Assembly: GCA_916610825.1 (NCBI GenBank)
Contig: OU744447.1
Location: 15,545,751-15,609,750 of the forward strand
DNA length: 64,000 bases
Direction of reading: 5' to 3'
From: Haliclystus octoradiatus
Lineage: Eukaryota; Cnidaria; Staurozoa; Stauromedusae; Haliclystidae
Positions 420-59,305 of the stretch are shown here, in pieces; within the stretch, counting starts at the first letter, position 1; each line of letters opens with the position of its first letter. The notes below the pieces were generated by a model. It saw only the letters and a list, made by a program, of their open reading frames with translations, searched no databases and was not told the DNA's origin. The position numbers and the translations under genes are program-made.

Positions 420-740
420 GTTCTATCCGCTCATCTTCCTCGAAATCAGATTCCTCCTCGTCATGCCGTGGCAGTCTAACTATCTTAGATGCAGATTTAA
501 GACTTGGTTTAAAATCTGGTCACCTTGTCAAACATGGCCGGGTTAGAGATATGACCAAATGCAAATCATTATGTTGTAAGAATGATAATTGTGATGTGGT
601 TTACATGAAAGATTATTATTGTTATTCTATTGACTGCTTCAGTGAAGACTATTGTCAATGGATTTCTGTAAAGGATCCTAACGCTGATATCAAGATTTCG
701 TATGTTGTTAGAGAAAAGACTTTTGCTGGTTTTGAAAAAG
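420..740 (+). CDS. Giant gene exon a: MANEC domain 1
   Basis: Phase 1-1 exon of 107 codons with a Ser-rich lead, then MANEC domain 1. It shows the [13 protein letters not shown] core, a YYCYSIDC segment and a final Cys in EDYCQW. The acceptor is TTTTAG and the donor is GTATGG. The methionine inside the open frame at 551 is internal and is not a start, since the open frame and half of the domain lie before it. Confidence 0.85.
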
Positions 741-3700
741 GTATGGGTAATTTACTATCGTTTATCATACAAGACCAGGAACACTGAAGTGCTGGATGAC
801 CTTTCCAATATGTTGTAGCTTCTATGGGGTATACATGTATTAAAATGTATTACTGAGTATCAAATTCTATATGAAGCATATGGATATTTAGCTCTTCCTT
901 ACAAATTTGATCTATTGATTGAAACTAATAGAAGTGGAAGAGTTGAAAGTTCATTAAAATTCCATTTATTCAAATATCAGAACAAAAAGATCTTTAGAAT
1001 TTTAAACAATACAGCAGAAATGCAAAAAATTATGATAATTTGGATTTATATTTAGATGGATTGGGCTTTCATCGATGCTACACTGATACGGTACCATATT
1101 TTTTTCTTACTTTCATACAAATTTGGTCTCTCCTCGAGTAAATGCCCGATTATTATAGTAGCAGCCACGACCGTAACTACCTGCTCCTGACTGGGCATTT
1201 CTAATTTTGCCCGTACAACATGGGCGTGTCCAGGCTTATGCTCGACTTCGAATTGATGATATGGATCTCAGCTCCCCTGTGAATGATAGTTTTATTGTAA
1301 AACTTACTTGTGATACTGAAGTAGATGATGATGGTAATGATAATGAAGCGGTAGCGTAAAGAATCCATTATTTGAAATATAATGTAATTATCCATCTTGT
1401 TCAGAGAATGAGGAAATTAGAATTATATTATGGTATATATATAGGATGAATTACCATAGTTTATATAGAGTTGTATATTAAAAGTGATTCTGGGCAGAAA
1501 GGCGTGAGACAACTTTCAAAAATAGTAGTTACGAGAGTGCCACTGTTAGGAAAATGCACTGACTCACAAGAAATGGAAAGTATCACATGTGCAAAATTGC
1601 AAAATGCGTGAATAAATCTTTCAAAACTCAAATATTGCAGCATCAAAATTTGAATTTTTATAGAATTTGACAAACCACAAGTTCCACAGATTTGATACCA
1701 TCATTGAAAAAATTCACAAGTCATCTTGAATTACCCCTTATTCTTATATTGAATAAGCCTCTTCGGAGTTTAAAAGTTCTTTTGTTCTAAGGTGGATAAA
1801 CAAATTCAGAAGAATTATCTCGCGTTTTTTCCCTGGGGACTGGTATTAACAATGAGTAATATGAAATCGACAAGTAACTCCGAAGAGGCTACAAAATATT
1901 TTCCGAGCTACAAACCTACAATGCAGTCAGGATGGCTGGAGCCATTACTGATACTCTATACTGATCTCGATGTCATTCCTGTGAAAAAGCAATTTAATAC
2001 TGTTCTCAGGAGTCAGGTCATGTATGCTTATCAGGTCCATACGGGGACGTACGGGAACTTGCCATTTTTAAAGGGTGCCTATTCCAGATTCTTGTGAAAT
2101 TTTACGGTTTCAATTTAAGAGACTTTCAAAATGTTAGAACTTTTCCTTTGTTTTGCTCGTTAAAACATGAAATTTTAGGGTCTTCATTCTCATTTGCTGT
2201 GAAATTTTACAGGTTTCCTTTATTTTTGAAAATGGCACACCCTCGTCAAAAATTACTTAAGTACCACCCCTCCCCCCCCCCCGACCCCGGATATCAGGTA
2301 TTTCTGACTTGATGATGATGATATGATGTAATTTTATATTTATTATTTGCAGATGATGAAAAGCAGCTGTATGACACGGGAAAGCCGAAAGCAAAACATC
2401 AAATCAAAAAGCAAAGCAAGCATCAAACGAAAGCACACCATAAAAAAAACAAAGAAGCTAATTTTGATGCTTTAGGAGATGCAATTGAGCAGGATTCAAA
2501 TCTTGTTATAGATGAAGAAACAAACCGAACAAGAGAAATGTTAAATGAATACCACAAAATAAGAAAAGCAGAGAACATCCCTGAAAAACCCAAACCTATT
2601 ACATCGTCCTATGGAGAAAATAGAACATTCTCTAATGAGTATGTTGATGATTCAGAAACACAGAGTGTGTTTGACAATGTTTTAAAATCCTTTCAAAAAC
2701 ACAACAAAAAGCAAAACATTACAATCGATTCTGCCAAAGAACAAGATAATAAATTCGATGATGCTATGTATCAGAACTCTAATATGCAAACAAAAACATC
2801 GTCTGATGTGCCAAAGAAAGATATAAATATAATCGATAATCGATTTTCAAGTAAATATAATACTACACCAACCCAATCTGTCGATTATCTCACAGATGTT
2901 ACAAATAGCGAAAATCATAAAAAAATTGAATTTGAATCCGGTCTGTTGAATGGACCTCAGCTAGAAATATCAGGAAGAGGTCAAGCAACAGAACGGCCAG
3001 AAGGGCAAAACAAATCTTCAAATCAATCCTTTTTAGGTCTAAATGACAGTGCTATACTTGATGGGTTTGAGAAAAAGGAAGAACTAAGTGACAGTCCAAA
3101 CCTTGGTAAGTTTATTATATGTATAGAATTCGTAAATAAGGAGTTGTATTTCTTCAGTAATTTGTGAATATCATTTGAATTTTGCACATCAAATAAATAA
3201 AGAAAAGTGAAAGTAGAAAGTTGAAAGATTAAAGTCTAGTAATCTAGTACTTTTCTATTGTTTTGTGTTTTCAAATGCTATCCCAGTTCATCATTCAAAT
3301 GATGTAGCATAAGTTCCATTTTGGTTTCTTCGTAATTTTCTATATTTTTCTATTTGTTGACAGTAATTGAGTTAAATGACATGACAACAAACAGACACGC
3401 TGACATGACAGGAAATCATCAACAGACAACACAATCGAACACAGCGAACGAATATAATACCACTCAAACGGTTAAACACGATACAAACAAACATTTTAGC
3501 AGCAGTTACCCCCAAAGATATGTTAACAAAATGCACAATGATAACACACCTGCCTTACCGGAAAGTAAATATCCCATACAAAAGCAAGTAATGGATTTAG
3601 CAAGAACACCTACAGAAAATATCACAAATACCATAAATCAGCAGTATAGTATGCATGAGCAACATCAATCAGTACGTTATGACCAACATAGACCTAACAT

Positions 3701-6700
3701 GTCAGAGTTGATTAGAGGAGACGGAGTATCTTCTGCGCTGAGTGAAAATGCTCTGAAAGAGGCTGTGGATGAATTATATGCAAATCTATCATCATCAGCT
3801 AAAGGGAGAAAATATTTACAAAATTATGCAAATTTAACAAAGTTTTCCAAGCAACTTCATCTCAACTTGACAGCCGCTTCTTATTCAAACAATGGGAGCA
3901 CCATAAAACCATTCAATACTGTAGAATCTCAACAGGAATATCAAACAACTCGTCTGCTAGCTCCGAAAATTATCAATCTAGCAACATATCAAGAAAACAG
4001 TACACATAATGCTGAAACAGAAATTCATGCTAGATCGATTTTAAATCAACTCCAAGTTATTGCTTCAAGAACTTTGCAAGATATTCCAAGAAAGCAGATT
4101 GGGAAAAATAAAAATGATTTCTTACATTTAAATGGCAATATCTCAGAAGAGATCACTGGATCCAGTCAAGCTATGCACTGGTCCAAAGCACGAAGAGATC
4201 ACATGAGTAAGATGATGTTATTAATTGGATTAGCTGCCCTTGAAACTGCAAAGGAAGTTGCGAAAGAAACTAATAAACGAAAGCAACGTTTACGTAACTA
4301 CTTCAAGAAGTTGCATGCTAAGAAGCAAACTATTGATCTATTGCTAAAAGCAATTAACATTGAAAAAAATTCAAAGACAACCAAAGACTTGAATAAATTT
4401 GGAAAAACTGCAATTGATGTAGCTAACAATTTAGTATCACTAGGAAATCCAAAGTCTAAGCATGCTTACGGCACTGTACAAGTAGATGGAGTCAACCCGT
4501 CTCCTATAATAGAAGATGATTATGCAGCTCACCTACTGAGAGCCCAACAATTACAGAACCCAACAATGAAAAGAATACCTCTATGTACACATGGTCATAT
4601 TCATGTAGGCGCATCACCAAGATATGGTCGACATTCTGGTAAAATGATTCTTTATAAAAACGTTCAATCAATATCCAAATGTGTAAAGTTTTGTTGCTCG
4701 CTACCATCTTGCGACATGGCATTCTTAATCAGAGATAAATGCTATGCCATTATTTGCAAGAATGCTATTGCTTGTCAACTTGTTAAATATTCTGGAAAAA
4801 GTAAAACCCAAGTAGCCCGCATGTTTAGAAGCGGTTTGAATCAAAAGGAACACGAAAATTCCTCTGGACATAAACCACAACTTCATCATAAGAAAGTAAC
4901 AACATCACCTCAACTCAAAAATCTATCTTTAGAATCAACCCTCGAAATGTTGAGACCAGTATCAAACCATAACCATGATGATCGTAAAGCTATTGACCAC
5001 ACAAGGCATGCTAATTCTAGAAGCTCATGGTTTCATAATAAGACACAAAATTCAAACAGATTTTCAGATACTGCAATCACAAGTAATGCAGAACAGGATA
5101 TTGAAGAAATAAAGAATCAAACTATACAATTCCATTCAAAATATGTCAATAGTAGCTCAACAAGAAAAAGTAAAAGCAATTTGAATCAAATTGCAAGAAT
5201 TCTAGGAAATTTAACTGCTTCTATTGAGAATACAAGACCAGGCCAAAATCAAACTGAGAATCGCAATGCATCAACCAATCAAAGTCAAGCATTATACCCT
5301 ATTAAACATGTTATAACAAATGTCAATTTAAAAAATGCAAGTTGCCACAGTACAACCCCTATCAGGAATGTAGTGCTTATTGGTGGCTTGAATGCAGGAA
5401 ACTTCAAAGTTATTGAATCAGGCAGATATAATTTCATCAAATGCATCTATTCATGCTGCCAAAGTAATAATTGCAGCCTTGCATATATGGTGAATGGTAA
5501 ATGCTACAATGTGCATTGTAAAGATAAACGATCGTGTATGTATAGCCGTATCCATGTTCCTGGTTATTCAGTTTCATTAGCCTATGTAAAGAATGTAACA
5601 AAATCTGAAAGCATCAACAGGGAGTATAATCAAACCGTATTTCAAAACAAAACAAACACAAATGAAACACACATGGATACATTGTCTCCTCTAAAAGTAT
5701 TAAATGATCTCAAGTTACTTTATCAAATATCCCAAGGACAAATAGGACACAAAGGCATTAATGTGTATAAGGATACCAAAGAATCTGTCTTACAAGAAGG
5801 ATTCAAGGCAATTGATGCTGATGTTGATGTCTTATCTGCTAAAAATCGTTCATATACTAGCGGATTAAGTTCATTCCCCAATGAGACATTGTGGAATACT
5901 GGTATTGTTCAGAGCATCCTAGGGAATGATGAAGACACTGCGCAAAAAAGTGATTCACGTGCATTTGCTCCAACTCAGAACTCATTACTTCAAGAGCCCA
6001 AATCAATATCATCAGTACCTACTGCTAATAATCATAAAATGATCAGTTCTTTCTATGGAATAGACAACACACCTAAACCAAATGATGATAGCAAACATCA
6101 TGGGAAATATAAGGACATTCTTGACTCATTCTTTACCACCAATCAGCTATCTGCTAATCAAAAGTCTCCAATAATAGATGAAACTGATTTAGAAATTGTA
6201 AGTGATAAGAAAAGTGTTATGGGTAGTAGAAAGTCATCGATTCCTAAAGATACTTTAGGGAACCAAACGTCAGTTGCCAACAAAAGCAAAGACTATCCAA
6301 ATGCTAGAGCCAGAACAAAATCTTCTAAGCAAGTTGATGTGATCAATGATAGTGAAAATGTATCCAAACCTGAAAGAATCCTAGAGGAAAGTCACCAAAT
6401 AACTAACACTATTAAACATACTACTTCTATCATTTCCAATCCAAACAAATCAGTGTTTAAACAAAATATAAGTCAATTATTTCATAATAACAGCCATACA
6501 GCCGTACCCGTAAAGAGTATGAACCATAGCTTACACAAAAAGAAAGATGTTCATGATTTTGCTGTGTCACATCAAAATGTAAGTAAGAAACCCATAATTC
6601 ACCAAGATATATTTACATCGAACCGCATCCCTATGCAAGCAAAAACTACTGCAAGCCATAATAATGTAACACATTTATTGAGATCATCAAATGCAAATAA

Positions 6701-9700
6701 ATTTATCCATGATTTCATTGATCTATTTAAAGATGGTCATATGTATAAGAATGGCACATACTCCCACATAGAAAACCCTCTGAATGTCACAACAGATGAG
6801 CAAACTCTAGAAAACCACAATTCTTTTCCCCAGTTAAACTCTTCAATTAAAGCACCAGTCACTGTATCACAGCTAGCATATAGCATTCCTACTACCTCCT
6901 CTATGTTTTATAAAAACTCAATCAAGTCTGTCCACGCGACTAAGTCTACCCAAAAAAACATTGCCAAAGGTGTTCAGACTACTGCTGGAGTAACCAAGTC
7001 AAGCCCTTCAATTACCCCAATTAACAACTACAATTTATATACACAGAAACCTAGTTCAACTGTTAGAAAAATGAAAGATGTTATGAAAATCACTACTACA
7101 GAAGAAACAAGCCTATACCCAAGCTCTCGATCCAGTACTCCAAAAATCCTATTAGTAAAACCTACTATTTCAAGCTACAACATATCACAAGAATATTTAA
7201 CAAGAAAAGTATATGTTTCAAGCTCAAATCACAATCAATTTGGTCCAAAAGACAGCTCTAATTTGACCGAAAATATCGATGCCTCAAACCCTGATTCTAA
7301 GATATTTAATTCCAACGGCTTATCAAAGTCATCTGCGAAACTTTCATTGCAAGACAACGTTGAAGTTAAAGCAAAATATATGGTCAATATGAATTCATTT
7401 AACACAAATACTACAGTGAAAAGAAATCCTGCAAAGAAACAAAAGCTAAAGTCATTAGTTGATCCTACTAAAAAGATAATTAGTAAACCTTTGTTTAATT
7501 CTGTTATTAGATCGACGAGAAAACGGCCATACTGGCTTCCAAAGTCAAGCGATTCATCAAAATTTGCCTACATGGCTAATAATAATGACATTGATAATTT
7601 GATTGAAACAGATAATTCTAAAAAAATTACTATTGGCACTGATACTAATAACAAGAAAACAGCTGTGAAAGTCGGGACCTCTAAAAGCAAATCTAAACCT
7701 CTAAAAGCAAAAGCAACAGAGGATTCTTCTGAAATAAATAAAGCTTTCTATTTTGCAAAAAATATACAGCATTCTTTATTTTATCCTATTTTGGAACATA
7801 ACAGTCAGCTTTCTCAAAATCTACTAAAATCACAGCCTGATAAATATGTCGATAAACATATCTCTGTCATAAATGACGGTGATGATAGCTCTCAAATTAA
7901 TGATAATGCTGATGGTTCCATAAATTTGAATCTTACATTAGTCAAGGGACAAGTGAATCCCACAAACATGCCCATCCATTATCCTGAAATTGAAGTTAAA
8001 AATGTTACAGTTTCTTCTCGTTTACATCAGAATTCCACACAAGCTCCCACCGTAAACTTTGATCTTGATAAAAATGTTTCCATGGATTTTGAAAATTATT
8101 TTCAGAACAAACCTGAAGAAATTGATAATTTGGCGGCAAATAATGACATAATGAATATAAATAAAAGTGCATCTATATCATCAGATAGTATAAAGTTAGC
8201 AAATGCCTCAAATACCCACATGTCAAATACCACTTCAAGTGTTAACGATACAGAGTTTCTTACAAACATTGCAGCAATTTCGCAGAATCAAAACCAGCTT
8301 TTATCTACAACGACCTCAAGAATTGGAACACATTTTACTTCGCATTCCAAAAATATAATAAAATTTCACAACTCAACATCATTTGAAAAACTTACTCCAC
8401 AATTATCCAGTCAGCAGTCAGGCGCAAAAAGACAACACAAAACTACAAAAATTAAAGAGTCTAGTAAACAAAATGATTTTTTTAGTTTGTTAGAGGAAAT
8501 AAATAATCATCTTAACATCAAATCTAAAACAAAGACCAAGAAACCACTTGAAAAATTAAATCGAAAACAGCATAGGTATCCTTCAAGAATTGAAAAATTG
8601 AAAACCATCAAGCCATTGAAAAGTCCATATCATGATTATAAACCTACAAATAAATACCATCAAGAGAAGAAAATAGAGAAGATAGAGGAGACTGCAAAAG
8701 AGGCATTACAATTACTTGAAAGTGTCTACAAAAAGAAGAAGGCGCATTCTCATGAAAATGCCACCATTGATAGATCAGTGAATCTAGTAAAGAACACATC
8801 TACTCAAAATCAAAAACCAAATATGTTTAGTAACGTAAGCAAGTCTATCAAAATCATATCTATAAAAACACCAACCAATACTAACCAGACAACATTCTTG
8901 AAATTCAATGATACTCAAGAAATTATATCAAAGTCATCTAGCAACATAAATATGAGTACATATGGTGGAAATATAATTAACTATCAAAACACATCAAGAA
9001 CAATTACAGTAAAACCAAAATTCCAAGACCCCATAACTAATGAAACAAATGGAGATACTGAAGATGGAATCAACAACAGCAGTTTACAGTCATTGAATCT
9101 AACAAGAAAACCAACTGAAACTCAAGTAGATCGTTTCTTAAAATTATTCTATGGTAACGAATATAAAGACAAGCTACTACAGCATCCTGTTACTCCAACA
9201 CTAAAATCTTCAAAATTCCCAATTCTGTCACATGTAAATACAAGAAAAGAAAAGGAGGTAGAAAGCTATGATGCTAGAAAACCAACACTTTCCACACTTC
9301 AAAATGCCCCAACAGATAGGAATTTTCCTTCAAAGCTACATGATGCTGTAGCATATGGTAATCAGAATGATGTAGATTGGAAGGTCAACAATGTGAACGA
9401 ACCTGCCTCTCTTGATCCTGACCAATCAAGCGATGCATCAAATATGAACTCAATGACAGAAAATATCAACAATCAATTTCTAAAAAAGGCATTCCCAATT
9501 AGCCAGATTTACAATAAATTTCTTAACTTACCAAAGCACTACACCTATAAAAGTACTCCTTATAAGCCGTTACAATTACCAATGAATGTGCAGCAGCCAG
9601 GCAAATTAAAAGATTCATATTACACTACTTTTCAGTCGCAAGCAAGTCTGCAGCAGCCAGATAACTCAAACAATGTACCTTCAACTACTCCTTTACAATC

Positions 9701-36700: not shown

Positions 36701-39700
36701 GGTTTACTTTCTCTCTAAGAAATGTCTAAAGCCTATGAAAACGTCACAACAACCCACCAAGTTGAGACTCCACCTATATCACCCCAACTTGCCCAACCTG
36801 TATCAACTCAAATTAGACCAAGTGAAGCTGATTCAAGACACAACAATGGAACAGATGTTGATGTCATAGAACTCCCCAAGCCTCATTATTCCAGTGTTAA
36901 GTCATGGTGTACAACTGATTTTGTTCTTGAGGGCGTCAAATTAGCCGGTGGACTTCATTCTGGACCATACGTTGAAATAGGAAGATTAGATGATATGAAT
37001 GCTTGTCTACATCATTGTTGTCAGTGGAAAGATTGTACTATAGCATTTCTTAACCGTGGTACATGTTATTCTGTACATTGTACAGACCATGATTTATGTA
37101 AAGCTGCTGTTGCTGATTCATTCAGTAGTCTTGGTTATGTTATAAGAGACGGGAAAAGCTTGTACAAATCTGTTCAAGATGCGGTACATGAGAAAGTCTA
37201 CACCGCAAAACCACAAGAAGGACTTCATATATCACCTATTAAAGCACCTTCTATGGGATCAGTACCTTTAATGCCACAACCTGGAAATAAAATAACAATA
37301 ATCAATCCAAATGAGTACAATGCTGCAGCAAAAAGTGCGAATTTGTCAACATTAACACGCCGGCCAGAGATACCTGTACCAAATGTAGCACCTTTACCCC
37401 ATCCAGTTAACACAGAAAGAAATACTGAAAATTATTGTAGAAAACAAGATACATTGCATAATATGAGACTTTTGGGTGGATATCATTCTGGTATATTTTC
37501 TGACCACGGTGAAGTTAATAGTATTGAAACATGTTCTGATTATTGTTGTAAAGACACTGCATGTGATTTAGCATATTTAATATCTGGTAAATGTTATTCT
37601 GTTGCCTGCTTTTCTAAAGAATTGTGTGCAACGTTTAACGTGCGGAATGATTTGATCAATTTGGTTATTGCATTTGTGTCAAGAAACTCAACAGGTACGT
37701 CAAATATTTACTTTCAATTTCTGTCCAAAATATTCCCAACATAAGAATGTGTAAAGACCAATATTAAATATGTTATAAATTGACAACAGTAAAGTTGTCA
37801 ACCTGGAAGCAAATGCTCCGGTGAAAAAATTCCATGAGTTCATGAACGAAAAATTGCCAAATTATTCATGAAATTGTCATGACAGGTCATGCAATGTCCA
37901 TCAAGTGTTCATGAAAATTTGCACAAGTGATTGTTCATTAACCGATTCATGAAATTCTCATGAGCTGTTCACACAGTTTACATATTGCTCACAACCTGTG
38001 TTTAACCTGTTACATATGATGTTCGCAAACTGTTCATAAACTTGTAGAAATTTTCACAAGGAAATATTTTAATATTATTGTAATTTGTGATAAAAAAGTG
38101 ATAAAACCTATCCACGTCTATCCACTTTCAATAATATATATTTGTATTATGTATTATTAGTGTTATTGATATGAATTATATTCATTTAGAAACCACAATC
38201 ACTGATGTTCCAACATCATCAACAACGGTTGGCATAGACGAAACTACAGTTCACAAAGTTGATACAACATCAGAAACAATCCCAACAACTGCACCAACAA
38301 CTTCGACAACTAAGCAAACCACAACCAAGCCCATAACAACAACACCAACAACCATGTCAACAACACAAGTAACAACTGCATCATCAACACCAGTAACTTC
38401 TAAACTTATCCAGCAGCCAACAGAAAGTTTGAAGAAGCCAATTCCAATGAAGCCCACATCTAGACCAGTGACTCCTCCTAACAAAGCTGAGGCTAAAACA
38501 ACATCGAAACCAAAAATAACTCGGGCTAAAACAACACAAAAGAAAAAAATAACTCAACACAATCATAAACCAACAACGAAAAAACAAAACAAAAAACATA
38601 ATAAGAAGGATGCACCAAAAAAAGGCAAAAAGTTAACGAAAGAATATCTGAATTCATTACTCTCGCAACTGCAAGATGAAGACGACGAGTTCAGTGGATT
38701 AGAAATTATGGAAGGACAATCAGAAAAATCAAAAGCAAGGAAGATCAAACCAACCAAAAAACCTGGCTCATTACAAACACTAGTGCATAAGGTTGCATCC
38801 AAGAAAACCCATACAAATAAAAAGGCAAAACTCAAAGCAGTTCATAAGAAACCTGTACTTGTTGAAACAGCTAGCAATCGTAATAAATTACCAGTGCATA
38901 GAAAACCCATGCCTCTGTCATTGAATGATATTCAGACAATTGAAGATCTAAGTCCTGACCCACCAAGTGAGTATGATCTAGCATTTTATGACCATCCAAA
39001 TGAAAACAGTTCATTAACATTCCATTGACAGTTCATGAAAGCCAAATCATTCAAAGTTTATGAACTCAGTAAAAATAACTAGTAATCACGCCTACTACTA
39101 ATTGATTTACTTATATTTGGCTCAATAATCAGTAGTTATTAATCAATCCTTTGAAAAAGTTGATAGTAGATTTGTATAAAAATGTAATTGAAATGTTTTT
39201 GTTGAGTAAAGGATGAGAATGATGATATTGATATTGATAAAATTGCTTTCCATGCATTACCAAATTATAATAATAATAAAACAGCACTATATTACATGGA
39301 CGTGGACGTTTGAATTTATTTATCTTAATTTTAATGACAGTTAAATATACCAATTTCAATCACTCTGTAGAATACAACTTGTTCAGTAATGGTCACTTTA
39401 TAATGTTTAGAATCCGTTCTCTTAAAAGCCCACCTGTGTATAGTTGTCAAAGTATTCAGATCTCATAGATGATTAGAAAGATTTACTGTGTCTACAATTA
39501 CTGTTGTGTAATCACGCATTGCCCTGACTGTAACTCAATACTGTAACAAAAGTGCAGGTATTATCAAGCATGTGAATGTGATGTACTATCAGAACTCATA
39601 AATAACTGAATATTATCTAATTTTTATATGTTTATTATGTATCTGTAGAAGATGTTGGTCGTTGCCCTGCTGACCAGTTTGGATGTGAACATTTTTGCAT

Positions 39701-42700
39701 AAAACTAAAACATGGTGGGCACAGATGCATGTGTCATAGAGGATACAGACTATCTGAAGATGGAAGACATTGTATCAGTAAGTACAATGCTGACATTGCA
39801 TTGATTCTCACCCCTGCGAAAAACAGTTCAGGAGTTCATGAACAGTTCATGAAAATTTGGGGCCATTTAACGTTCATGAATTGTTCAAAAACTGTTCATG
39901 AACAGTCCATGAAGATATTTATTGTAGGCTATAATGGTCATACTGTATTGGTCTTCAATCAAAGGCATTCCACATCCATTCAAAGATTTGCGTTAAATTA
40001 TCTTTTATTGACTTTAGCCCACATGGGAATACAATGTTAATATTTGTGGGTTATTTGGGATTATGGTTGTGGTTGTGGGTTATTTATGGTATATGTTTAG
40101 TGGTGTAGGCTTTGATACCTGGATCATCAGAGGAGGTGCTGTCTCATGCTCGTCATCACCTTTGAAGTATACTTCTACATAAATCACGTAAATTAAAAAA
40201 AATCAGCAGAAAGGTATTAAAAATTGTCAGATAGCTATAAAATTTGGAGGATTTGGCCCCTACGAACTTGCAAAATTTATATTACATTTCACAACTTTCC
40301 AAATACCGTAATTTTCCAAATACAGTACTTCTATTCCAGACTGTTCAAGGTACTTTATTGAAATATGTAGCCATTTACCTGTTAATGTACTTGTGTCTTT
40401 CCTTGAAAAAATGTTTTATAACAGATATGATTATTGATGTAAAACATGAGGTGACTTTGAAGGCTCTAGCCCCAAAATTAATTGTGCGCCCCTTTTGCTC
40501 TCTCAAAAAATGAAGTTCTGTGTTTCTAAATTCTATTCTGAAAATTCTAAAGTTCAATGGAAGAAAAATGTTGGTCCTAACTGTTTCAAATGTCCTCCTT
40601 AAATGTCCTAAATGGGTATAATAATGTATTGGGCATGCCTGATGCAACAATCAATGTGACTGTTAAAATCAACTGAATATATTTTGTCAAATGTATTTCC
40701 ATTTCATTTTATTTCACTTTTAAATTACAGATCAAGTTGAATGTGATGCTAGAGCGCATGGCTGTGATCAATTCTGTGTTTATGATTCCAATGATTTTGT
40801 GTGCCAATGTCGATCTGGATTTTTTAGAAATAAGGCCAATGACGAATGCAAAGGTGAGAACTGTGTGACTTTTTGAGAGGGAACTGAACCAAGGGCCGAT
40901 ATTATCATTTTAAACATAACTTATAGGGCAAAAGGATTGGTGGGCTCTACACGTTTAGAATCACATGCATGTTTGTTGTTTGTATTGTTTCTGCGCCTGA
41001 AACCATGCTGAAACTTGACATTTGAAGCCATGCCGAACCCATGACTGACATTGATCGTTGAATTTATGCTAAGCATAATTCAAGTTGAGCTTGTAACAAC
41101 AGCTGATCAAAATTGCTCCTTCAAATGACCACTGTAATAATGCGATCTCTTTGTTGAGGTAAATTAACCCCTTTCATTCTTCAAAGTGCATGTAGCATTT
41201 GAGATAGTTATAATATTGCATTGAATTGAATGATTATGATGTGCTTGTTTTAGATCTTGATGAGTGTCAAATGGGTATTCATGGTTGTTCTCAAAAATGT
41301 TTAAATACGCTTGGCAGCTACACTTGTACTTGCGATGAAGGATTCCGTCTTACTGATGACAAAATGACATGCGAGGATCTAGGTATGAATGATATATGGA
41401 TGGTACATGATATTTTTAAACATTGAAATAGTAAATCAGATCTAAATCTAGCAAGATACAAATGGCTGCTTAGAAGTCATCTTATCAAGGTTGCCTATTA
41501 CTTCAACTTTAAATATACAGCAGCAGTGCTACGGACAAATCTGCTATAACGGCTATCTCTATATACCGAGCGCATGTTTATAATGCTCTTTACAGAAATC
41601 ATTATTATACTGAATCAACCCTGTATATCAAGGTAGCATGAATAATTGTATCAAGGCAACAGTAGTATACAACTTTCACTGTAATCAGAAGGCTGTAACA
41701 GTGCATGTTTTAAAATACTTGAATAAACAGTCTTTGGTAAATTCACTACTATGGTACATTTTTAAAACTATTTATGTACAGGGTATAAATTGATAGAACT
41801 GTAATTGAATTTGCATCTTTTAAAAGCTAGTGTTTTTGATTCCAGCTATTAATCACAATGGTAAAAAAAATGTTGTGGAAAAAGCTGAAGCAACCTTTTC
41901 TAGTAAGTGTATTTTCCTTTAATTTATATATTGATAATGTTAATATGCTTTTATCTAGTAGAGCATAATTTATGCTAAACGCTGTGTGCTCTTGACTTTA
42001 GCAATGTTGGAATAAAAATTTCTATTGACAAACTTTGAATTAAAGAAAGTGTAAAGTTTGTATTGAATAGACTTTATAAAATGATCATCTAATTTTGATA
42101 TCAATGTTTTATGTAAATCCTTTTTCTGTGTTCATACTATAATTGTTTTAAATACGCGTCAACAAGAAAGACAGATTCTAACTCTGCAATCTGATTGGCC
42201 AGAAGAGTGTGTAAAAAATATAAGATAATTATTGTTTTAAGGAATGCTAAGAAATTTAATTTAGAAACTTCTCTAGAGCTCTGTGAGAAAAGAATGAAGC
42301 ATTTTTAATTTAAATTTCACTTGGATTGCTAGTTAATAAAATTTCCTGTATCATTTTGTGAGTACAGTAGTCAAATCAGATTTCAAAGATTGTTTTTCAT
42401 TTTAAATAAAAGGCTACCACGCATAACTTGTTGTGTATTTTATTTCATACTACACTTTTTAGTTCCGGCAACTGTCTCAACATTCTACAAACATACAACA
42501 ATAAAACAAGGCTCAAACATCCTGTTATCATGTGATGCAAGAGGCTATCCAGCACCAAAAATAGCTTGGACATTAAACGGCGGTAATATCATCCCATCAA
42601 ATTCAGCAAAAAACCGTTATGTTGTCATGCCTGATGGTGGTTTATTAATTGAGCATACAAGAATGACAGACAGTGGTGCGTATCATTGTGTTGCGTCTAA

Positions 42701-45193
42701 TAAGGCAGGGAGTGCTATCTCCGAAGTTGAATTAAAAGTTAATGACATCGATGAATGCAATGATGGAACACACCATTGTGAGCAAAAGTGTACAAATTTA
42801 ATTGGGAATTATTCCTGTTCGTGTTATTATGGTTATATGTTGGCTGAAGATGGTTTCTCGTGTGAAGGTATTTCTAGTTTATTAGATCGTTACTATACAT
42901 TCTTGTATTCCATGATCATTTAACTTTACATAGATTAGATGGGTGTCATGTAAAACTTCCTTCAAATTACAGTTCATGGACATCCCTGCAAAAAATTTGT
43001 TGAGTTCATGAACTGTTTCTGTGTGAATTTTACGATCGTTCATGAACTGTTCATAAACACCTTATTAAAAAGAAAAGCACAGTTCATGAGCTAGTTCATT
43101 AATGTTGTTAAATTGTCTGGTTTTCATGGACTGGTTTCACAGGAGCAATACATAACGTTTTCATGAAAATGTTCATGAAAAGCAGGTTATTTATCATTTA
43201 TGAGCCGTTGATGAGGTTCGTAATTGGTTCATATTAGGTTCATGAAGTGCATTTTCAAAGGAATGCTGAAATATTTCAAAATCCCTCAAATGTTTAATAT
43301 AACCACCATACAAAGATCGCCTGATTAACATTTGACAATATAATCTGATCTCAAGACTAGCTGCTATATACAACTATACAATTCCAAGTGTGATATCTTT
43401 TTTTTGTTTTAAGATCTTGATGAATGCAGTGCAAGAACATCAACATGTGAACAGCTCTGTTTTAATTCATTGGGAAGCTATTCTTGTGGATGTCACCATG
43501 GCTACGAGCTAAGAAATAATGAAAAAACATGTGAAGGTAACATAATATATGATTTAACATTGTATGGTCATCATCCGCAAAAACAACCTCTAAGCGGTTT
43601 GCATTCACCATATATAATGTAACCCTCCTAGGTGTAAGTCGGAATTGAAACCATTTTCATATATTATGAATTTGTACTCATCCAAAATTATTTAGCTAGG
43701 ATTCAACTACAAAATGGTGTAAATATTTTTATATTGGTGATGAATTAGTTGAAATAATAAATAAATTTGTGAACTGGAAAGAGAGCATCTCAAATCTCAA
43801 AAAATCATTCAGTCTTGACTTTCTGAACCTCAACACGTACCATCTTTTGAGCTGTGGTGTGTGTGTATGCTACACCTTGTCAATCAAAACATATATGCCA
43901 TTAAATGTGTTGAAATTAATTGTATTGCGCATGATATCAGTAATGGATAGTTACAAACCACAAACTCATTCAAGAAATTAATTTCAGATTCTAACTGAGA
44001 ATAGGAAATGCTAAATTTAATTTAATGAGTTTCACATAATTCCTTCTTTCTATTTCAGATGTTAATGAGTGTCAAGAAAAAATTCATTTATGTGAACAAG
44101 TGTGCAAAAATAAAAATGGAACTTATGAATGTGGTTGTCAAAATGGTTATCATTTAAGAAATGATAATCATACATGCGAACGTAAGTAGAGAAATATTTA
44201 ACATGTTTTTTAACATAGTATCAGTTGCTTGTACTGATCAATAATATTATTTAACTAATAATAATTGAAGTTCAATATCATGAAAAGGTGTATTACGACC
44301 AGATATTTTGAATACAAGTAATAAAGGAGTAGGCCTACATCTGATTGAATTGTTGAATAAGAGATAGATGTACTGGCAATTATAAGATGAACTTAACGCC
44401 AATACAGAAAATAACTCATTTAGCATAACATAATAGCATTTATTTAATTGACATTTTATTGGTATCAAACATTCTAATTTAAGTCTGCAATGCCATTGCT
44501 AATCTCCTTTAGACAATTCATATTTCATATAATTTCATGTTTTGAGTTCATAGTGGGTACAGAATCTCCTCAAGATCATTAAAATATTGAAAGCATGCGT
44601 TCCTTTTTAAGAAACGCAACATTTGTTTCCCTTTGAAATGATGATCATCAAATGATTAAGTAATGATATTTTTATTTTTTATTTAATCAGGACTGCCATA
44701 ATCCAGTGTTTTACATTTGTAATTTAATTTACCATTTTTCTATTTGACACAGTAAAGCAAAACATTGTGATAATATGTGGGCTGTGATATTAGCTTGATA
44801 GAATGATAGATAGATAGCTTGATGGTTCTTTGGGGGTAGTATTAACACTATGAGATTTTAAAGTACTGAAATACTACTGAAAAACTGCTGAAATTTCAGT
44901 AGTTTTTCAGTAGCCTTGCTTTTTTAGTAGTTTTTCAGTAATATTTTAGTACTTTCAAATCTCATAGTGTAAATGGGCTATGATATTCATGTTTTTATTG
45001 TTTTATAGACATAAGAAAGGCTCACTTCTCCCTCATTCACGGTGAGGCTGTTGGAGCTGGTGCAAGCGCAATCATTTCATTGACAATTGTTTTATGTTTG
45101 GCATTCTTTTTCTCTGTGATTGTGTTTGTACGGCACTATTGGATACAACGAAAAAGAAAAAGACCTTTGAAGAATGATGTAGAACAAATTAAG
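420..45193 (+). CDS. Giant multi-MANEC transmembrane mucin/proteoglycan-like protein (5'-partial gene, 21 traced exons)
   Basis: Exons read: 420-740, 2353-3105, 3364-14043, 14462-28090, 28696-29967, 30774-31421, 31819-32211, 32855-33187, 33526-33723, 34248-35240, 35673-36209, 36720-37694, 38190-38966, 39649-39777, 40731-40853, 41254-41382, 41846-41902, 42463-42867, 43414-43536, 44059-44181 and 45009-45193. Every junction has AG/GT and keeps the frame, giving about 10,900 codons. Domain order is 14 MANSC/MANEC-type domains, LamG-like, two MANEC, LamG-like, four MANEC, basic Thr-rich stalk, three EGF, short linker, Ig plus EGF, two EGF, TM helix and a basic cytosolic start. MANEC domains are known from KIAA0319 and related membrane proteins; they are recognised here by C-x3-CC-x4-C-x(3-4)-A and later Cys. 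Linkers are rich in Ser, Thr, Asn and N-glycosylation sequons, so I infer a heavily glycosylated surface protein. No signal peptide is in the window, so the 5' end lies upstream. Function is unknown. Confidence 0.88.
741..2352. other. Intron, no gene recognised
   Basis: 1.6 kb AT-rich intron. It contains an inverted repeat of about 15 bases (near 1753-1768 and 1875-1890, built on CTCCGAAGAGGCT) and a C-tract near 2270-2283. Two open frames at 1792-2312 resemble nothing I know and overlap this inverted repeat. I treat them as chance frames. Confidence 0.5.
2353..3105 (+). CDS. Giant gene exon b: hydrophilic linker
   Basis: 251 codons, phase 1-1, between TTTGCAG and GTAAG. It opens with a Lys/His-rich stretch and continues as polar low-complexity sequence rich in Asn, Lys, Ser and Asp, with no domain I recognise. 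The frame joins cleanly to the exons on both sides. The ATG at 2538 is internal. Confidence 0.8.
3364..14043 (+). CDS. Giant gene exon c (10,680 nt): six MANEC domains, long linkers, six-copy novel repeat
   Basis: A single uninterrupted 3,560-codon exon, phase 1-1, bounded by TTGACAG and GGTAAGTA. MANEC domains lie at about 4584-4830, 5343-5590, 10023-10270, 12840-13090, 13173-13425 and 13788-14034. Each has the Cys-x3-Cys-Cys core; examples are [30 protein letters not shown] and [15 protein letters not shown]. Two helical basic islands sit near 3720-3870 and 4195-4440. The 4.4 kb between domains 3 and 4 is Asn/Ser/Thr/Lys-rich with many N-x-S/T sequons. A Gln/Pro-rich repeat covers about 9570-9890, and six copies of a 39-residue repeat cover 10428-12010. 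Acidic Ser-Gly sites near 10391 and 13620 could carry glycosaminoglycan. Confidence 0.92.
10428..12010 (+). repeat. Six-copy protein repeat of about 39 residues (HDLLLHSKAVS..VLRPFK type)
   Basis: Copies at about 10428-10557, 10863-10982, 11130-11250, 11334-11450, 11619-11736 and 11892-12010. They share HDLLLHSKAVS, then VLRPFK, then a charged heptad-like part and LDFLS. Examples are [38 protein letters not shown] and [18 protein letters not shown]. Copy 1 is the most diverged at its end. Copies are separated by variable Lys/Thr/Ser linkers of 25-100 residues, so the repeat is a discrete unit and not simple low complexity. I do not recognise it as a named domain. It has no cysteine and looks amphipathic and helical. 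Confidence 0.85.
14044..14461. other. Intron between the two giant exons
   Basis: A 418-base AT-rich intron with donor GTAAGTA and acceptor TTTATCCTAG. It separates the 10.7 kb and 13.6 kb exons. No gene or repeat is recognised in it. Confidence 0.85.
14462..28090 (+). CDS. Giant gene exon d (13,629 nt): seven MANEC domains in a Ser/Thr-rich mucin-like chain
   Basis: A single 4,543-codon exon, phase 1-1, between TATCCTAG and GTAAGTCC. A dibasic segment RKTRR lies near its start. MANEC domains lie at about 17617-17860, 18025-18270, 19486-19737, 21877-22122, 22459-22712, 24328-24576 and 24616-24870; cores include [15 protein letters not shown] and [15 protein letters not shown]. The seventh lacks the usual Gly-Gly before the core. 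The first 3 kb is Ser/Thr-rich, with a helical island at about 16560-16960. The C-terminal third changes to Pro/His/Lys/Asp-rich sequence. It carries a HED repeat (about 25900-26530), a Ser-Gly cluster near 25461-25491 and a very basic Thr-Pro-Lys segment (27400-27660). Confidence 0.92.
25900..26530 (+). repeat. HED repeat: about 25 residues, four clear and two degenerate copies
   Basis: Clear copies begin [47 protein letters not shown] and [17 protein letters not shown]. Two weaker copies between them start around [12 protein letters not shown] and [14 protein letters not shown]. The shared pattern is His-Glu-Asp, a spacer, Asp/Glu, Tyr and Pro, then basic residues and His-Ala. I do not know it as a named domain. 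It is acidic-aromatic, unlike the surrounding Lys/Thr-rich linker. Confidence 0.7.
28091..28695. other. Intron, no gene recognised
   Basis: A 605-base AT-rich intron with donor GTAAGTCC and acceptor TTCATAG. The open frame of the preceding exon continues to a stop at about 28233, but that part reads as unstructured intron sequence. I see nothing else in it. Confidence 0.7.
28696..29967 (+). CDS. Giant gene exon e: Pro/Asn/Thr-rich linker
   Basis: 424 codons, phase 1-1. There is no cysteine domain. The sequence is rich in Pro, Asn, Gln, Ser and Thr, with repeated HPTIRK motifs. A short segment near the start ([18 protein letters not shown]) looks like a weak coiled coil. The frame matches both neighbours. 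Confidence 0.82.
29968..30773. other. Intron with an imperfect hairpin
   Basis: An 806-base intron. An inverted repeat at about 30439-30473 pairs CATTGTAAGAGATCTG with CAGACCTCTTGCAATG across a 3-base loop, two mismatches in 16. Weaker complementarity extends outward over roughly 30400-30510. This is probably a decayed fold-back element. No gene is seen. Confidence 0.55.
30774..31421 (+). CDS. Giant gene exon f: LamG-like (concanavalin fold) domain 1
   Basis: 216 codons, phase 1-1. It reads as a full LamG-like jelly-roll domain. Visible features are [11 protein letters not shown], the [12 protein letters not shown] strand, [21 protein letters not shown] and a terminal [12 protein letters not shown]. 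This is the Laminin_G_3-type pattern found in many surface and matrix proteins that bind glycans or proteins. It is paralogous to the second copy at 33526-34760, but here the domain is not split by an intron. Confidence 0.85.
31422..31818. other. Intron, nothing recognised
   Basis: A 397-base intron with a good donor (GTAAGTAA) and acceptor ATACAG. Minus-strand open frames in it show no family resemblance. Confidence 0.7.
31819..32211 (+). CDS. Giant gene exon g: MANEC domain 15
   Basis: 131 codons, phase 1-1, with a short acidic lead and then one MANEC domain. It carries [35 protein letters not shown] and a final Cys in SLCQP. It closely follows the family pattern. Confidence 0.87.
32212..32854. 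other. Intron carrying a dispersed repeat copy
   Basis: A 643-base intron. The stretch 32434-32612 is a copy of the GACCATTATAGACAGG family described separately. The rest is plain AT-rich intron ending in AACTTTCAG. Confidence 0.7.
32434..32612. repeat. Dispersed repeat, GACCATTATAGACAGG family, copy 1
   Basis: It starts GTGAAACCTGTATACAACAG and contains three GACCATTATA-type units, ending AGGTTTGACTGTA. The same order of blocks recurs at 50937-51062. Confidence 0.6.
32855..33187 (+). CDS. Giant gene exon h: MANEC domain 16
   Basis: 111 codons, phase 1-1, with a Pro/Thr-rich lead (including five consecutive Pro), then MANEC with [27 protein letters not shown] and CFTVRC. The ATG at 32944 is internal. 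Confidence 0.86.
33526..33723 (+). CDS. Giant gene exon i: linker and start of LamG-like domain 2
   Basis: 66 codons, phase 1-1. A Pro/Thr-rich lead is followed by [20 protein letters not shown], the first strand of a LamG-like domain that continues in the next exon. It aligns with the start of exon 30774-31421, which supports its being coding although it is too short to stand out as an open frame. Confidence 0.8.
33724..34247. other. Intron inside LamG-like domain 2, with a SINE
   Basis: A 524-base intron that splits the second LamG-like domain. The equivalent place in the first copy has no intron. Most of the intron is occupied by a tRNA-derived element in minus orientation ending at 34193. 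Confidence 0.65.
33790..34193 (-). mobile_element. tRNA-derived SINE (minus strand)
   Basis: On the minus strand the element begins GGGAGAATTAGCTCAGATGG. That contains a polymerase III A box (TAGCTCAGATGG), and a B box GGTTCAAATCC lies at 34134-34124. The spacing between the boxes suits a tRNA promoter, but the acceptor and T stems no longer pair, so it is not a working tRNA. A non-tRNA body follows towards lower coordinates; its far end near 33790 is a guess. Confidence 0.6.
34248..35240 (+). CDS. Giant gene exon j: rest of LamG-like domain 2, Thr-rich spacer, MANEC domain 17
   Basis: 331 codons, phase 1-1. It has [42 protein letters not shown] and [13 protein letters not shown] of the LamG-like fold. 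A Thr/Lys/Pro spacer of about 45 residues follows, then MANEC with [29 protein letters not shown] and CYLVEC. The donor is GTAAGTG. Confidence 0.88.
35241..35672. other. Intron with decayed repeat fragments
   Basis: A 432-base intron. A short GTTCATGAAC fragment lies near 35295-35345, and a degenerate stretch similar to the GACCATTATAGACAGG family lies near 35395-35560. No gene is seen. Confidence 0.5.
35673..36209 (+). CDS. Giant gene exon k: Thr-rich mucin segment and MANEC domain 18
   Basis: 179 codons, phase 1-1. About 75 residues of nearly pure Thr/Pro/Ile sequence, a likely O-glycosylated stretch, precede a MANEC domain with [29 protein letters not shown] and CFAVSC. The codons of the Thr tract are ACA/ACT/ACC-rich and form an imperfect trinucleotide-like repeat. 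Confidence 0.87.
36210..36719. other. Intron, nothing recognised
   Basis: A 510-base intron ending TTTCTCTCTAAG. The plus-strand open frame at 36407-36718 inside it resembles no family and is best read as chance. Confidence 0.65.
36720..37694 (+). CDS. Giant gene exon l: MANEC domains 19 and 20
   Basis: 325 codons, phase 1-1. It holds two MANEC domains separated by about 90 residues. The first has [29 protein letters not shown] and CYSVHC. The second has [29 protein letters not shown] and CYSVAC. The donor is GTACGTC. The ATG at 36722 is within the exon and is not a start. Confidence 0.88.
37695..38189. repeat. Intron with GTTCATGAAC-family repeat
   Basis: The stretch from about 37835 to 38060 is dense in TTCATGAA and CATGAA words in both orientations and belongs to the fold-back family described separately. 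No gene is seen. Confidence 0.6.
38190..38966 (+). CDS. Giant gene exon m: Thr/Lys-rich stalk with a glycosaminoglycan-type Ser-Gly site
   Basis: 259 codons, phase 1-1, no cysteine. A Thr-rich first half is followed by a very basic Lys/Thr segment. An acidic cluster [14 protein letters not shown] is centred on the Ser codon at 38693-38695. That has the acidic-plus-Ser-Gly form of xylosylation sites in proteoglycan core proteins. The exon ends in DLSPDPP. The context is a stalk between the last MANEC and the EGF array. Confidence 0.83.
38967..39648. other. Intron, only repeat fragments
   Basis: A 682-base intron. A GTTCATGAA fragment lies near 38990-39065. The rest is AT-rich with no recognisable gene. 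It ends in ATCTGTAG. Confidence 0.6.
39649..39777 (+). CDS. Giant gene exon n: EGF-like domain 1
   Basis: 43 codons, phase 1-1. It has six cysteines in EGF order, including CEHFCIK and [16 protein letters not shown]. It lacks a calcium-binding D-x-D/N-E start. Confidence 0.85.
39778..40730. other. Intron with a GTTCATGAAC fold-back copy
   Basis: A 953-base intron. One of the clearest family copies lies at 39811-39920 and starts CCCCTGCGAAAAACAG. The rest holds small open frames on both strands with no family resemblance. Confidence 0.6.
39811..39920. mobile_element. Fold-back repeat copy (GTTCATGAAC family)
   Basis: It begins CCCCTGCGAAAAACAG and continues with GAGTTCATGAACAGTTCATG and several inverted copies of the same word. 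It shares both termini with the element at 45691-45850. It is inserted in an intron of the giant gene. Confidence 0.6.
40731..40853 (+). CDS. Giant gene exon o: EGF-like domain 2
   Basis: 41 codons, phase 1-1. The EGF pattern is [14 protein letters not shown] then [10 protein letters not shown] and a last Cys in DEC. It is too short to appear as an open-frame call, but the splice sites (AAATTACAG, GTGAGAA) and the phase fit. Confidence 0.82.
40854..41253. other. Intron, nothing recognised
   Basis: A 400-base intron ending TTGTTTTAG. No gene or clear repeat is seen. Confidence 0.65.
41254..41382 (+). CDS. Giant gene exon p: calcium-binding EGF-like domain 3
   Basis: 43 codons, phase 1-1. It starts [16 protein letters not shown], the D-x-D-E-C signature of calcium-binding EGF domains, and continues [16 protein letters not shown], which matches the hydroxylation-type consensus region. 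Confidence 0.87.
41383..41845. other. Intron, nothing certain
   Basis: A 463-base intron. The stretch 41540-41650 vaguely resembles the GACCATTATAGACAGG repeat but is too decayed to assign. Confidence 0.45.
41846..41902 (+). CDS. Giant gene exon q: 57-nt linker mini-exon (candidate)
   Basis: 19 codons, phase 1-1, between TGATTCCAG and GTAAGTG. It encodes a polar linker ([18 protein letters not shown]) between EGF 3 and the Ig domain. There is no domain homology to confirm it. Support comes from good splice sites and the matching phase at both ends. Confidence 0.6.
41903..42462. other. Intron, nothing recognised
   Basis: A 560-base intron ending CACTTTTTAG. The ATG at 42390 lies in this intron in frame with the following exon, but splice and phase evidence place the exon start at 42463. 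Confidence 0.65.
42463..42867 (+). CDS. Giant gene exon r: Ig (I-set-like) domain plus calcium-binding EGF-like domain 4
   Basis: 135 codons, phase 1-1. The Ig domain shows [17 protein letters not shown] (B-strand Cys and C-strand Trp) and [16 protein letters not shown] (the D-x-G-x-Y-x-C signature). It runs directly into [16 protein letters not shown] of a calcium-binding EGF. Ig plus EGF in one exon is typical of fibulin- or hemicentin-like arrangements. Confidence 0.88.
42868..43413. repeat. Intron with GTTCATGAAC-family repeats
   Basis: About 42965-43255 contains many GTTCATGAAC and TTCATGAA words and a CCCTGCAAAAA start similar to other copies of the fold-back family. No gene is seen. 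Confidence 0.6.
43414..43536 (+). CDS. Giant gene exon s: calcium-binding EGF-like domain 5
   Basis: 41 codons, phase 1-1. It has [16 protein letters not shown] and [15 protein letters not shown] with the final Cys in KTCE. The splice sites are TTTTAAG and GTAACAT. Confidence 0.86.
43537..44058. other. Intron, nothing recognised
   Basis: A 522-base intron ending TTCTATTTCAG. An open frame at 43769-43981 inside it has no family resemblance. Confidence 0.65.
44059..44181 (+). CDS. Giant gene exon t: calcium-binding EGF-like domain 6
   Basis: 41 codons, phase 1-1. It has [30 protein letters not shown] and HTCE. The D-x-N-E-C start is calcium-binding type. It is the last extracellular domain before the membrane. 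Confidence 0.86.
44182..45008. other. Intron with a 126-bp hairpin element
   Basis: An 827-base intron. The near-palindrome at 44845-44970 is described separately and lies only 38 bases before the transmembrane exon. The rest is AT-rich and unremarkable. Confidence 0.65.
44845..44970. mobile_element. 126-bp hairpin (MITE-like) element
   Basis: The left end starts ACACTATGAGATTTTAAAG and the right end is its near-perfect inverse, finishing CTTTCAAATCTCATAGTGT. The two arms stay complementary for about 50 bases each, leaving a loop of about 25 bases. No coding capacity is present. I cannot define a convincing target duplication. Confidence 0.65.
45009..45193 (+). CDS. Giant gene exon u: transmembrane helix and basic juxtamembrane segment
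   Basis: Phase 1 in, phase 0 out. After [18 protein letters not shown] comes a hydrophobic stretch of about 25 residues ([20 protein letters not shown]). [14 protein letters not shown] follows, a classic stop-transfer signal, so this is a type I membrane protein with a cytosolic C terminus. The donor is AAG/GTAACC. If unspliced, the frame would end after another 25 codons (45268). Confidence 0.85.
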
Positions 45194-45850: not shown

Positions 45851-46425
45851 GAAACATAGATATGTAAATATGTAAAATATCGATAAATCTTTCACAATTT
45901 TAAATACTATTCATTTATCCTTAAAGATTTCTAGTGCAATCCTGTCTAAAATAAAGATCAATGTTGATATTCTTAAAAATCTAAAATAAACATTTTTCTA
46001 AATCTTAAAACTATTATCTCTAGATTGAAAGTAAAAGCAAAGCAATTTTCTCCTGGATGGACTAATGCTAATTAAAAATAATGGAACTATAATTTTTGAT
46101 AATTATTCATGTAAATAAACAATTAAAATTAATCAAGTTAGAAATCTAAAAAACATTTTTGATACATATATTTATAAATTGTGAATATGTACATAAATAT
46201 TTTAATATTAAAAAGTTTTTAAAATTCATCTATGATGTTAGACAAATGTGTAAATTAATAAAACTGTAAATTATATTTATATTAAATGCTTTTTATTTTT
46301 ATTGCCTTCTTAATTTCTATACAACTTGCATAAAAGTTAAATATTATTTAAATACTGCATTGTACTGGGATAATTGTTCTCTGGGGTTAGAAAATTACAT
46401 TTTGCAAATTGTTCTTTTTACGCAG

Positions 46426-58625: not shown

Positions 58626-59305
58626 TTTATATGAACTTAAAACTCACCAAACTACCAACATGATACACTGTCTTATTAAGACATATCAGGAAGGATCAGT
58701 AGTGATTTTTCTCTGAAAAATTGAGAATCGTCATCTCGATTCCAATACTGCAATACAAATATCCACCGAAGAGGCTTTAATAATAGATTGTATAACTACC
58801 ATAAAATATTTCCAATTGTATTTTTATCGTTATTGATGCAGCGATAGATGATTAAAAAGAATAATCATGATGTAGCATCGCTTTTAACAGGTAGAGTTTA
58901 GTTAGAATTCAAAACATCTGTTCGTTTGTATTACTGCATGTCTTCTTCGCTTTTAATTCTTGTCGCAGCCTAAAAATCATGACCAAAGAGATTCCATTTA
59001 TTTGTTGTGACTGTAGCCTCGCTCGCAAACAAATCCAAATCACAGGGAAGCCAAAATAATTGTGTAATCATTCTCATCATCATTTCTAAATAATTTGCAT
59101 ATGTTCACGTGATTAGACCAATGGATTAGACGGCCTATGTGATACCTGATCTCTTTGTCAACTGAACTGATCTCTCAACTTCTTTCTTTTAGTTTAGGTC
59201 CTGTTACAAGGAGGGCGAGTAACTCGGGCAGGTCTTTGGGGAAAAGAGCAAACAGCCCCAATAAGTCTGACATTTAATCCTTACAAACAAGCTACCAGAC
59301 ACAAG
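58626..59305. promoter_or_regulatory. Shared upstream region of FBXO10 and the SLC17 gene (head-to-head)
   Basis: 680 bases separate the FBXO10 start codon (58625, minus) from the SLC17 start codon (59306, plus). The two genes diverge, so promoter elements for both must lie here. Visible candidates are a TCACGTGA E-box at 59105-59112 and a CCAAT word at 59118-59122. No TATA box is obvious. 5' UTR introns cannot be excluded. Confidence 0.6.
59105..59112. promoter_or_regulatory. TCACGTGA E-box (CLEAR/TFEB-type core)
   Basis: A perfect 8-base palindrome TCACGTGA, about 200 bases upstream of the SLC17 start codon. In vertebrates this is the core of the element bound by MiT/TFE factors in lysosomal gene promoters. 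Whether it works here is inference. Confidence 0.4.

Follow-up and report, generated by a model that had tools for sequence, protein, structure and literature searches.

The stretch of DNA analyzed here (the window) comprises 64,000 nucleotides of chromosome 2 of Haliclystus octoradiatus, a stalked jellyfish (Staurozoa; chr2:15,545,751-15,609,750). Contig C33 of this genome carries cox1, whose frame stays open under translation tables 4, 5, 9, and 13, and the genetic code by itself does not single out the group. Along its forward strand we modeled a giant gene of 21 coding exons, in which all 20 joins are in phase 1, all splice borders are GT/AG, and the introns measure 258 to 2,856 bases. The reading frame runs through 10,928 codons without a stop, a count that takes in an exon 1 placed upstream of the window, and the original prediction of one continuous splice frame with more than 10,900 codons is thereby borne out. 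Positions below are those of the window, negative numbers lying upstream of it, and "module" denotes a copy of the cysteine pattern C-x3-CC-x4-C.

-2494..-2437 (chr2:15,543,256-15,543,313, upstream of the window), +: exon 1, probable signal peptide MKYGFYIILLLIFATLIHS, from hydropathy and donor
420..740, +: exon 2, module 1 (464-739)
2353..3105, +: exon 3, linker, no Pfam match
3364..14043, +: exon 4 (10,680 nt), modules 2-7 in long linkers (4578-4835, 5328-5615, 10017-10304, 12828-13112, 13161-13448, 13773-14042)
14462..28090, +: exon 5 (13,629 nt), modules 8-14 in long linkers (17608-17880, 18013-18291, 19474-19752, 21862-22140, 22447-22725, 24316-24594, 24601-24891)
28696..29967, +: exon 6, linker, no Pfam match
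30774..31421, +: exon 7, Laminin_G_3 domain 1 (match about 30941-31384)
31819..32211, +: exon 8, module 15 (31932-32207)
32855..33187, +: exon 9, module 16 (32920-33183)
33526..33723, +: exon 10, linker and, by eye, the probable first part of LamG 2; no Pfam match when scanned alone
34248..35240, +: exon 11, Laminin_G_3 domain 2 (about 34343-34771) and module 17 (34961-35236)
35673..36209, +: exon 12, Thr-rich tract and module 18 (35936-36205)
36720..37694, +: exon 13, modules 19 (36896-37168) and 20 (37424-37690)
38190..38966, +: exon 14, Thr/Lys-rich linker, no Pfam match
39649..39777, +: exon 15, EGF 1; donor 39777 set by hand (39936 or later in automatic runs)
40731..40853, +: exon 16, EGF 2, below the Pfam cut-off
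41254..41382, +: exon 17, EGF 3 (EGF_CA)
42463..42867, +: exon 18, Ig I-set (about 42474-42740) and EGF 4 (EGF_CA, about 42744-42863)
43414..43536, +: exon 19, EGF 5 (EGF_CA)
44059..44181, +: exon 20, EGF 6 (EGF_CA)
45009..45193, +: exon 21 (phase-0 donor), membrane segment at about 45068-45130, then the basic beginning of the cytoplasmic tail
45852..45875, +: last exon, a candidate picked on splice score alone (KHRYVNM, stop)

Downstream of these exons, the reverse strand carries a probable small gene (46,694-49,141) with a PAN match below cut-off, part of which we take to be fucolectin-like, and a gene that joins an F-box to a right-handed beta-helix (51,898-58,643), presumably the FBXO11 combination. 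Upstream, an EGF-rich gene with a signal-like start, judged by eye in an uncurated model, seems to run divergently on the reverse strand from about -6.8 kb outward; further out lie Laminin_G_3 matches at C2:15,511,906-15,512,160 (-) and, below cut-off, at 15,509,957 (-). A 10-base palindrome, GTTCATGAAC, occurs in 11 copies in the introns of the giant gene and in the flanking DNA (window positions 35302, 37838, 39834, 39894, 43004, 43038, 45773, 50723, 61204, 61215, and 61309). An ARAGORN search found nothing, and a near-identity search of the phage collection with 2 kb gave no match.

Gene model and the two ends of the protein

The exons were derived with a Viterbi gene finder (codon log-odds, GT/AG profiles) that was purpose-written and trained on the same gene, using its obvious exons; set by hand in the final model were the signal-peptide exon, the donor of EGF 1, and some choices between runs. 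At a gene boundary cost of -12, the retrained finder returned a single gene whichever of the four intron costs was used. With intron costs of -5 and -6, it agreed to the base with 19 of the 21 exons, the membrane exon among them, and placed the gene end at 45875. Its path departs from the final model by using -4743..-4662 as the first exon and 39936 rather than 39777 as the donor of EGF 1, and by adding an exon of 57 bases (41846-41902) that we left out. At -3 and -4, 16 and 17 exons were matched, and one or both giant exons were cut. All five earlier runs had stopped at 44582, short of the membrane exon, whereas the retrained runs include it. When the gene boundary cost was halved (-6), the path broke upstream of 1.9 kb and placed a stop at 39028 and, after a spurious piece, a start at 40641; a cost of zero gave a meaningless result.

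The break at 39028 and 40641 bears on whether all of these exons belong together. Two adjacent genes might lie here instead, one encoding a secreted matrix-type MANEC/LamG protein that ends at about 39.0 kb and the other a separate EGF-Ig-EGF membrane protein. Besides the finder result at -6, this would fit the observation that two of the five earlier runs missed the EGF 1 exon, whose donor was not set automatically, and the fact that any phase-1 exons, even from unrelated extracellular genes, will join in frame. However, the interval 38967-40730 contains no signal-peptide exon with a phase-1 donor, even at relaxed thresholds, and a start at 40641 would strand EGF 1 (39649-39777) without a gene, both of which speak for one gene. 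The 682-base gap between exons 14 and 15 is moreover an ordinary intron length within the range seen here, and the cost of -12 yields a single gene throughout. We consider two genes rather improbable and, as far as the sequence can tell, a single transcript for all exons likely, with the EGF-Ig-membrane end as the weakest link of the gene model.

The original prediction had left the N terminus missing. Since the divergent gene seems to lie from about -6.8 kb outward, the start of the giant gene is to be expected in the kilobases between. A signal-peptide filter (hydrophobic start plus a good phase-1 donor) picked out one upstream site, at -2494..-2437 (MKYGFYIILLLIFATLIHS; a second, nested ATG precedes it), and no phase-1 site inside 420-45008; its background was one site on the opposite strand of 57.5 kb. 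When any phase was allowed over -6750..45008, the filter gave four rows, two of which are the phase-1 site used. The finder's own first exon, in turn, begins MEGNNLDQKG and is not signal-like, and no modules were found in the 30 kb upstream. The N terminus is thus probably supplied by this one signal-peptide exon 2.9 kb upstream, outside the window, as judged by hydropathy rather than by a trained predictor.

At the other end, position 45193, to which the original prediction had drawn the gene, turned out to be a splice donor and not the gene end. The likely last exon lies at 45852-45875, so that the cytoplasmic end is probably KHRYVNM. Because the neighboring reverse-strand gene model ends at 46,694, the cytoplasmic tail should be short. 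Between the two ends, Pfam scans of the exons placed two Laminin_G_3 domains and one I-set Ig domain above cut-off, together with five of the six EGFs, each with some EGF-type model; EGF 2, the one below, holds six cysteines in 41 residues (14.6%). Apart from the signal peptide, hydropathy shows one strong membrane-like segment, which is C-terminal. The parts that had been predicted (a pair of LamG domains, six EGFs, a single Ig, and a TM segment) were all recovered, the TM segment by hydropathy, and the predicted type I surface molecule is supported by the combination of a probable upstream signal-peptide exon with a single C-terminal membrane segment, the same arrangement as in the KIAA0319/AAVR family.

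The modules and their relatives in the genome

Twenty modules were found on the forward strand of the window and none on the reverse strand. A strict spacing of seven cysteines gave the same result (20 on the forward strand, 0 on the reverse) and occurred in none of 30 dinucleotide-Markov controls. In a whole-genome profile search, all 20 window modules passed the curated cut-off of KIAA0319_N (PF23597), in agreement with the number originally claimed, and the exon scans distribute the module stretches over eight frames as 6+7+1+1+1+1+1+2, with E values of 4.8e-55 and 1.3e-53 for giant exons 4 and 5. The modules had been called MANEC, a label that was only partly upheld: rather than finding no match, the MANEC profile (PF07502) exceeded its cut-off in three of the eight module frames (both giant exons and frame 36719-37741), the other five reaching 20.4-24.4 bits against a cut-off of 25.5. 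Since PF23597 outscores PF07502 in every module frame scanned, KIAA0319_N is the better family label.

An alignment of the 20 modules shows eight invariant cysteine columns and little else in common, with identities of 16-33% to module 1 and of 19-36% to module 20. At such identities to module 1, and with the giant exons free of stops, a repeat or assembly artifact was rejected. A profile search of the PDB up to E 10 gave three matches, namely, HAI-1 twice, as 2msx (E 5e-5) and 5h7v (E 0.002), and MIC5 (E 0.37), of which the best is the HAI-1 MANEC structure 2msx. On these sequence profiles, the modules are predicted to be of an apple-like type with eight cysteines. The serial array of MANEC-type modules with LamG, EGF, and Ig domains on one long chain, as originally proposed, is supported by the domain matches.

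We then asked where else the module occurs in the genome (261.86 Mb, 33 contigs). PF23597 gave 57 matches and a single-module query 55, which merge into at least 61 places. Places less than 30 kb apart were joined, all PF23597 matches and six new or longer single-module ones being entered, and this resulted in nine clusters; some places are partial, one is half of an intron-split module, two contain a stop, and the counts are lower bounds.

This gene: 20 places
C2:16,439,136-16,474,013, both strands: 20 places
C11:1.17-1.19 Mb: 9 places
C1:25.63 and C2:36.59: 3 places each
C1:28.2 and C1:31.38: 2 places each
Two further clusters: a single place each

With module places forming nine clusters, the gene is not unique. 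The architecture that the original prediction had called unfamiliar is thus one of several module arrays in this genome. The portions of the open-licence PMC literature searched contain no description of a MANEC array; nor does any such term occur in the main text of PMC5080974 (on Hydra adhesion) or of PMC11299980. The second 20-place cluster on C2 comprises at least two genes, with a membrane-like exon after eight modules in an uncurated model. On C11 (1,161,001-1,181,000), several KIAA0319_N modules form a mosaic with F5/8C, Laminin_G_3, and CUB domains, WSC being below cut-off. The joins at this locus and at chr2:16.46 Mb are mostly in phase 1, again in uncurated models. Giant exons are likewise not unique to this gene, since long open frames with Ig or EGF matches also occur at C1:25,129,831-25,133,835 (2,831 codons) and C5:13,717,348-13,717,473 (3,877 codons). 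Retrotransposon pieces, which we take to be Ty1/copia-like, lie at C1:25,635,967-25,639,481, about 9 kb from a three-module exon.

In a tree of 52 distinct modules (of the 61 places), whose support is weak, only three of the 20 window modules have their nearest neighbor in the same gene. This points to duplication and shuffling at an early date rather than to a recent tandem burst, and recent tandem duplication was rejected on the same grounds. The family has probably grown by phase-1 exon shuffling together with old duplication of modules. The strong divergence of the modules, the number of places and clusters, and the rarity of nearest neighbors within the gene might also be read functionally, as the mark of a receptor that recognizes self or microbes and uses diversified modules as a repertoire rather than as an adhesive coat. 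We regard such a receptor as quite unlikely, however, given that the divergence looks old and not recent and that the branches of the tree are poorly supported.

Linkers and the mucin question

The linkers of exons 1-6 comprise 7,617 residues without a single cysteine, and their composition is rich in S (12.7%), T (8.7%), N (8.4%), and K (8.7%), with P at 6.4%. The whole model contains 185 N-x-S/T sequons and has a calculated mass of 1.22 MDa and a pI of 9.0. From this composition, it is a fair inference that the linkers are flexible and probably N-glycosylated. Under a strict mucin criterion (in 100 residues, S+T ≥40% with P ≥5%), 313 of the 10,928 residues qualify, all in two short C-terminal segments; a looser criterion (S+T of 30%) captures 2,306 residues. 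A mucin in the strict sense is thus rejected. What stands of the "mucin-like" chain in the original prediction are the two C-terminal tracts, the remainder being cysteine-free linker rich in S, T, N, and K, and what stands of its heavy glycosylation are the N-glycosylation sequons, the strict mucin test being mostly negative.

Giant membrane mucins such as MUC16 have very long exons and a long chain, anchored by a membrane helix, along which small domains recur. They differ from the protein modeled here in that their repeated domains are SEA domains and their tracts are true PTS tracts, whereas here the modules are of MANEC type and the linkers mostly fail the PTS criterion. A fully stretched residue measures 0.36 nm, and the linker residues of exons 1-6 would reach about 2.7 micrometers if fully extended. 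Within exon 4, at about 10,400-12,020 (+), we also observed six copies of a repeat of about 36 residues with the core DLLLHSK-x-IS..RPF, 68-147 residues apart from start to start; a Pfam scan of exon 4 gave no family above cut-off for this repeat.

A proposed multivalent tether

Modules of this kind in a cnidarian are in themselves no surprise, given that PMC6134521, in the excerpts consulted, notes numerous MANEC genes in cnidarians and places proteins with MANEC or LamG3 in nematocysts. The described MANEC proteins KIAA0319, HAI-1, and NSP5 have one module each (excerpts of PMC5905272, PMC12940448, and PMC6134521). KIAA0319 and KIAA0319L (AAVR) share the KIAA0319_N/MANEC module and the single membrane segment with the giant protein, but they combine one module with five PKD domains and a C6 motif in 1,052-1,072 residues, according to the consulted part of PMC5905272, where we find 20 modules with LamG, EGF, and Ig domains. 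Pfam scans of the 20 window exons, taken singly, gave no PKD match, a search in which a domain split between exons could be missed. HAI-1 (SPINT1), whose structure is the closest PDB match, shares the PAN/apple-type MANEC module and differs in having only one, alongside PKD-like, Kunitz, and LDLRA domains (PMC12940448, in part); among the matches listed in the Pfam scans of the window exons, there is no Kunitz or LDLRA domain. Membership in the KIAA0319 or HAI-1 proteins was rejected, with no PKD and no Kunitz listed.

Looser likenesses exist to two further groups. A table line of PMC12716839 names MANEC, beside EGF and LamG, for the ectodomains of adhesion GPCRs; unlike these, our model shows no seven-helix part and, by hydropathy, a single membrane segment. 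Cnidarian Polydom joins PAN/Apple to F5/8C and CUB domains, somewhat like the C11 locus, but it has a core of Sushi and pentraxin domains and no module array, at least in the excerpts of PMC12549020.

Taken together, we propose, at a probability of roughly 60%, that a single gene gives rise to a type I membrane protein with 20 modules and a mass of about 1.2 MDa, and that this protein, as part of the outer coat, works as a multivalent tether in adhesion or recognition. The chain would begin with a signal peptide, followed by the 20 KIAA0319_N/MANEC modules on cysteine-free, sequon-rich linkers, with the two Laminin_G_3 domains among the modules, and would continue through a tract rich in Thr, six EGFs accompanied by one Ig, the membrane helix, and a short tail. 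The EGF/Ig part may form a membrane-near stalk, and the linkers may hold the modules far from the cell. There, the apple-like modules and the LamG (ConA-like) domains would bind proteins or glycans, weakly as single units and strongly when acting jointly, which would make the molecule a multivalent tether of the outer coat, whose partner might be a neighboring cell, matrix, mucus, algae, or microbes. It is thus from its parts, i.e., the modules, LamG domains, linkers, and EGF/Ig stalk, that we infer an adhesion or recognition function. MANEC has been likened to PAN/apple domains and a role in protein-protein interaction suggested for it in the available sections of PMC5905272 and PMC12940448. 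Yet KIAA0319 constructs that lacked MANEC had the same effect on axon growth as the complete protein (PMC5905272, excerpt), which means that the activity does not have to reside in the module.

The cnidarian occurrence of these domain types also raises the thought that the protein belongs to the nematocyst (stinging capsule), its modules serving the capsule wall or its assembly. The MANEC protein NSP5 and the LamG3 proteins NSP1 and NSP2 share domain types with the giant protein and are nematocyst-specific in cnidarians, as given in the part of PMC6134521 at hand. There, however, NSP5 is described with one MANEC in the middle of the protein, and NSP1 and NSP2 with one LamG with or without TSP1, without any array. 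The giant protein, with its 20 modules, LamG, EGF, and Ig domains, and a membrane segment, departs from this plan, and we hold a nematocyst role to be very doubtful. A membrane-bound tether of the outer coat remains our preferred reading.

As far as the excerpted sources go, the MANEC/KIAA0319_N module occurs once per protein, the proteins including a dyslexia-associated protein, an AAV receptor, and a protease inhibitor. A chain of 20 modules, with dozens more in the genome, would be evidence that serial use, in the manner of EGF or Ig domains, is open to this module as well. The diverged copies also constitute a natural set for asking what the module binds. Moreover, non-bilaterian animals gain a 1.2-MDa candidate among their giant surface proteins. 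It is tempting to speculate, though we would not consider it probable, that staurozoans evolved a class of giant apple-module surface proteins without counterpart in the sources searched, which would serve as micrometer-long multivalent tethers, perhaps in algal attachment or self recognition.
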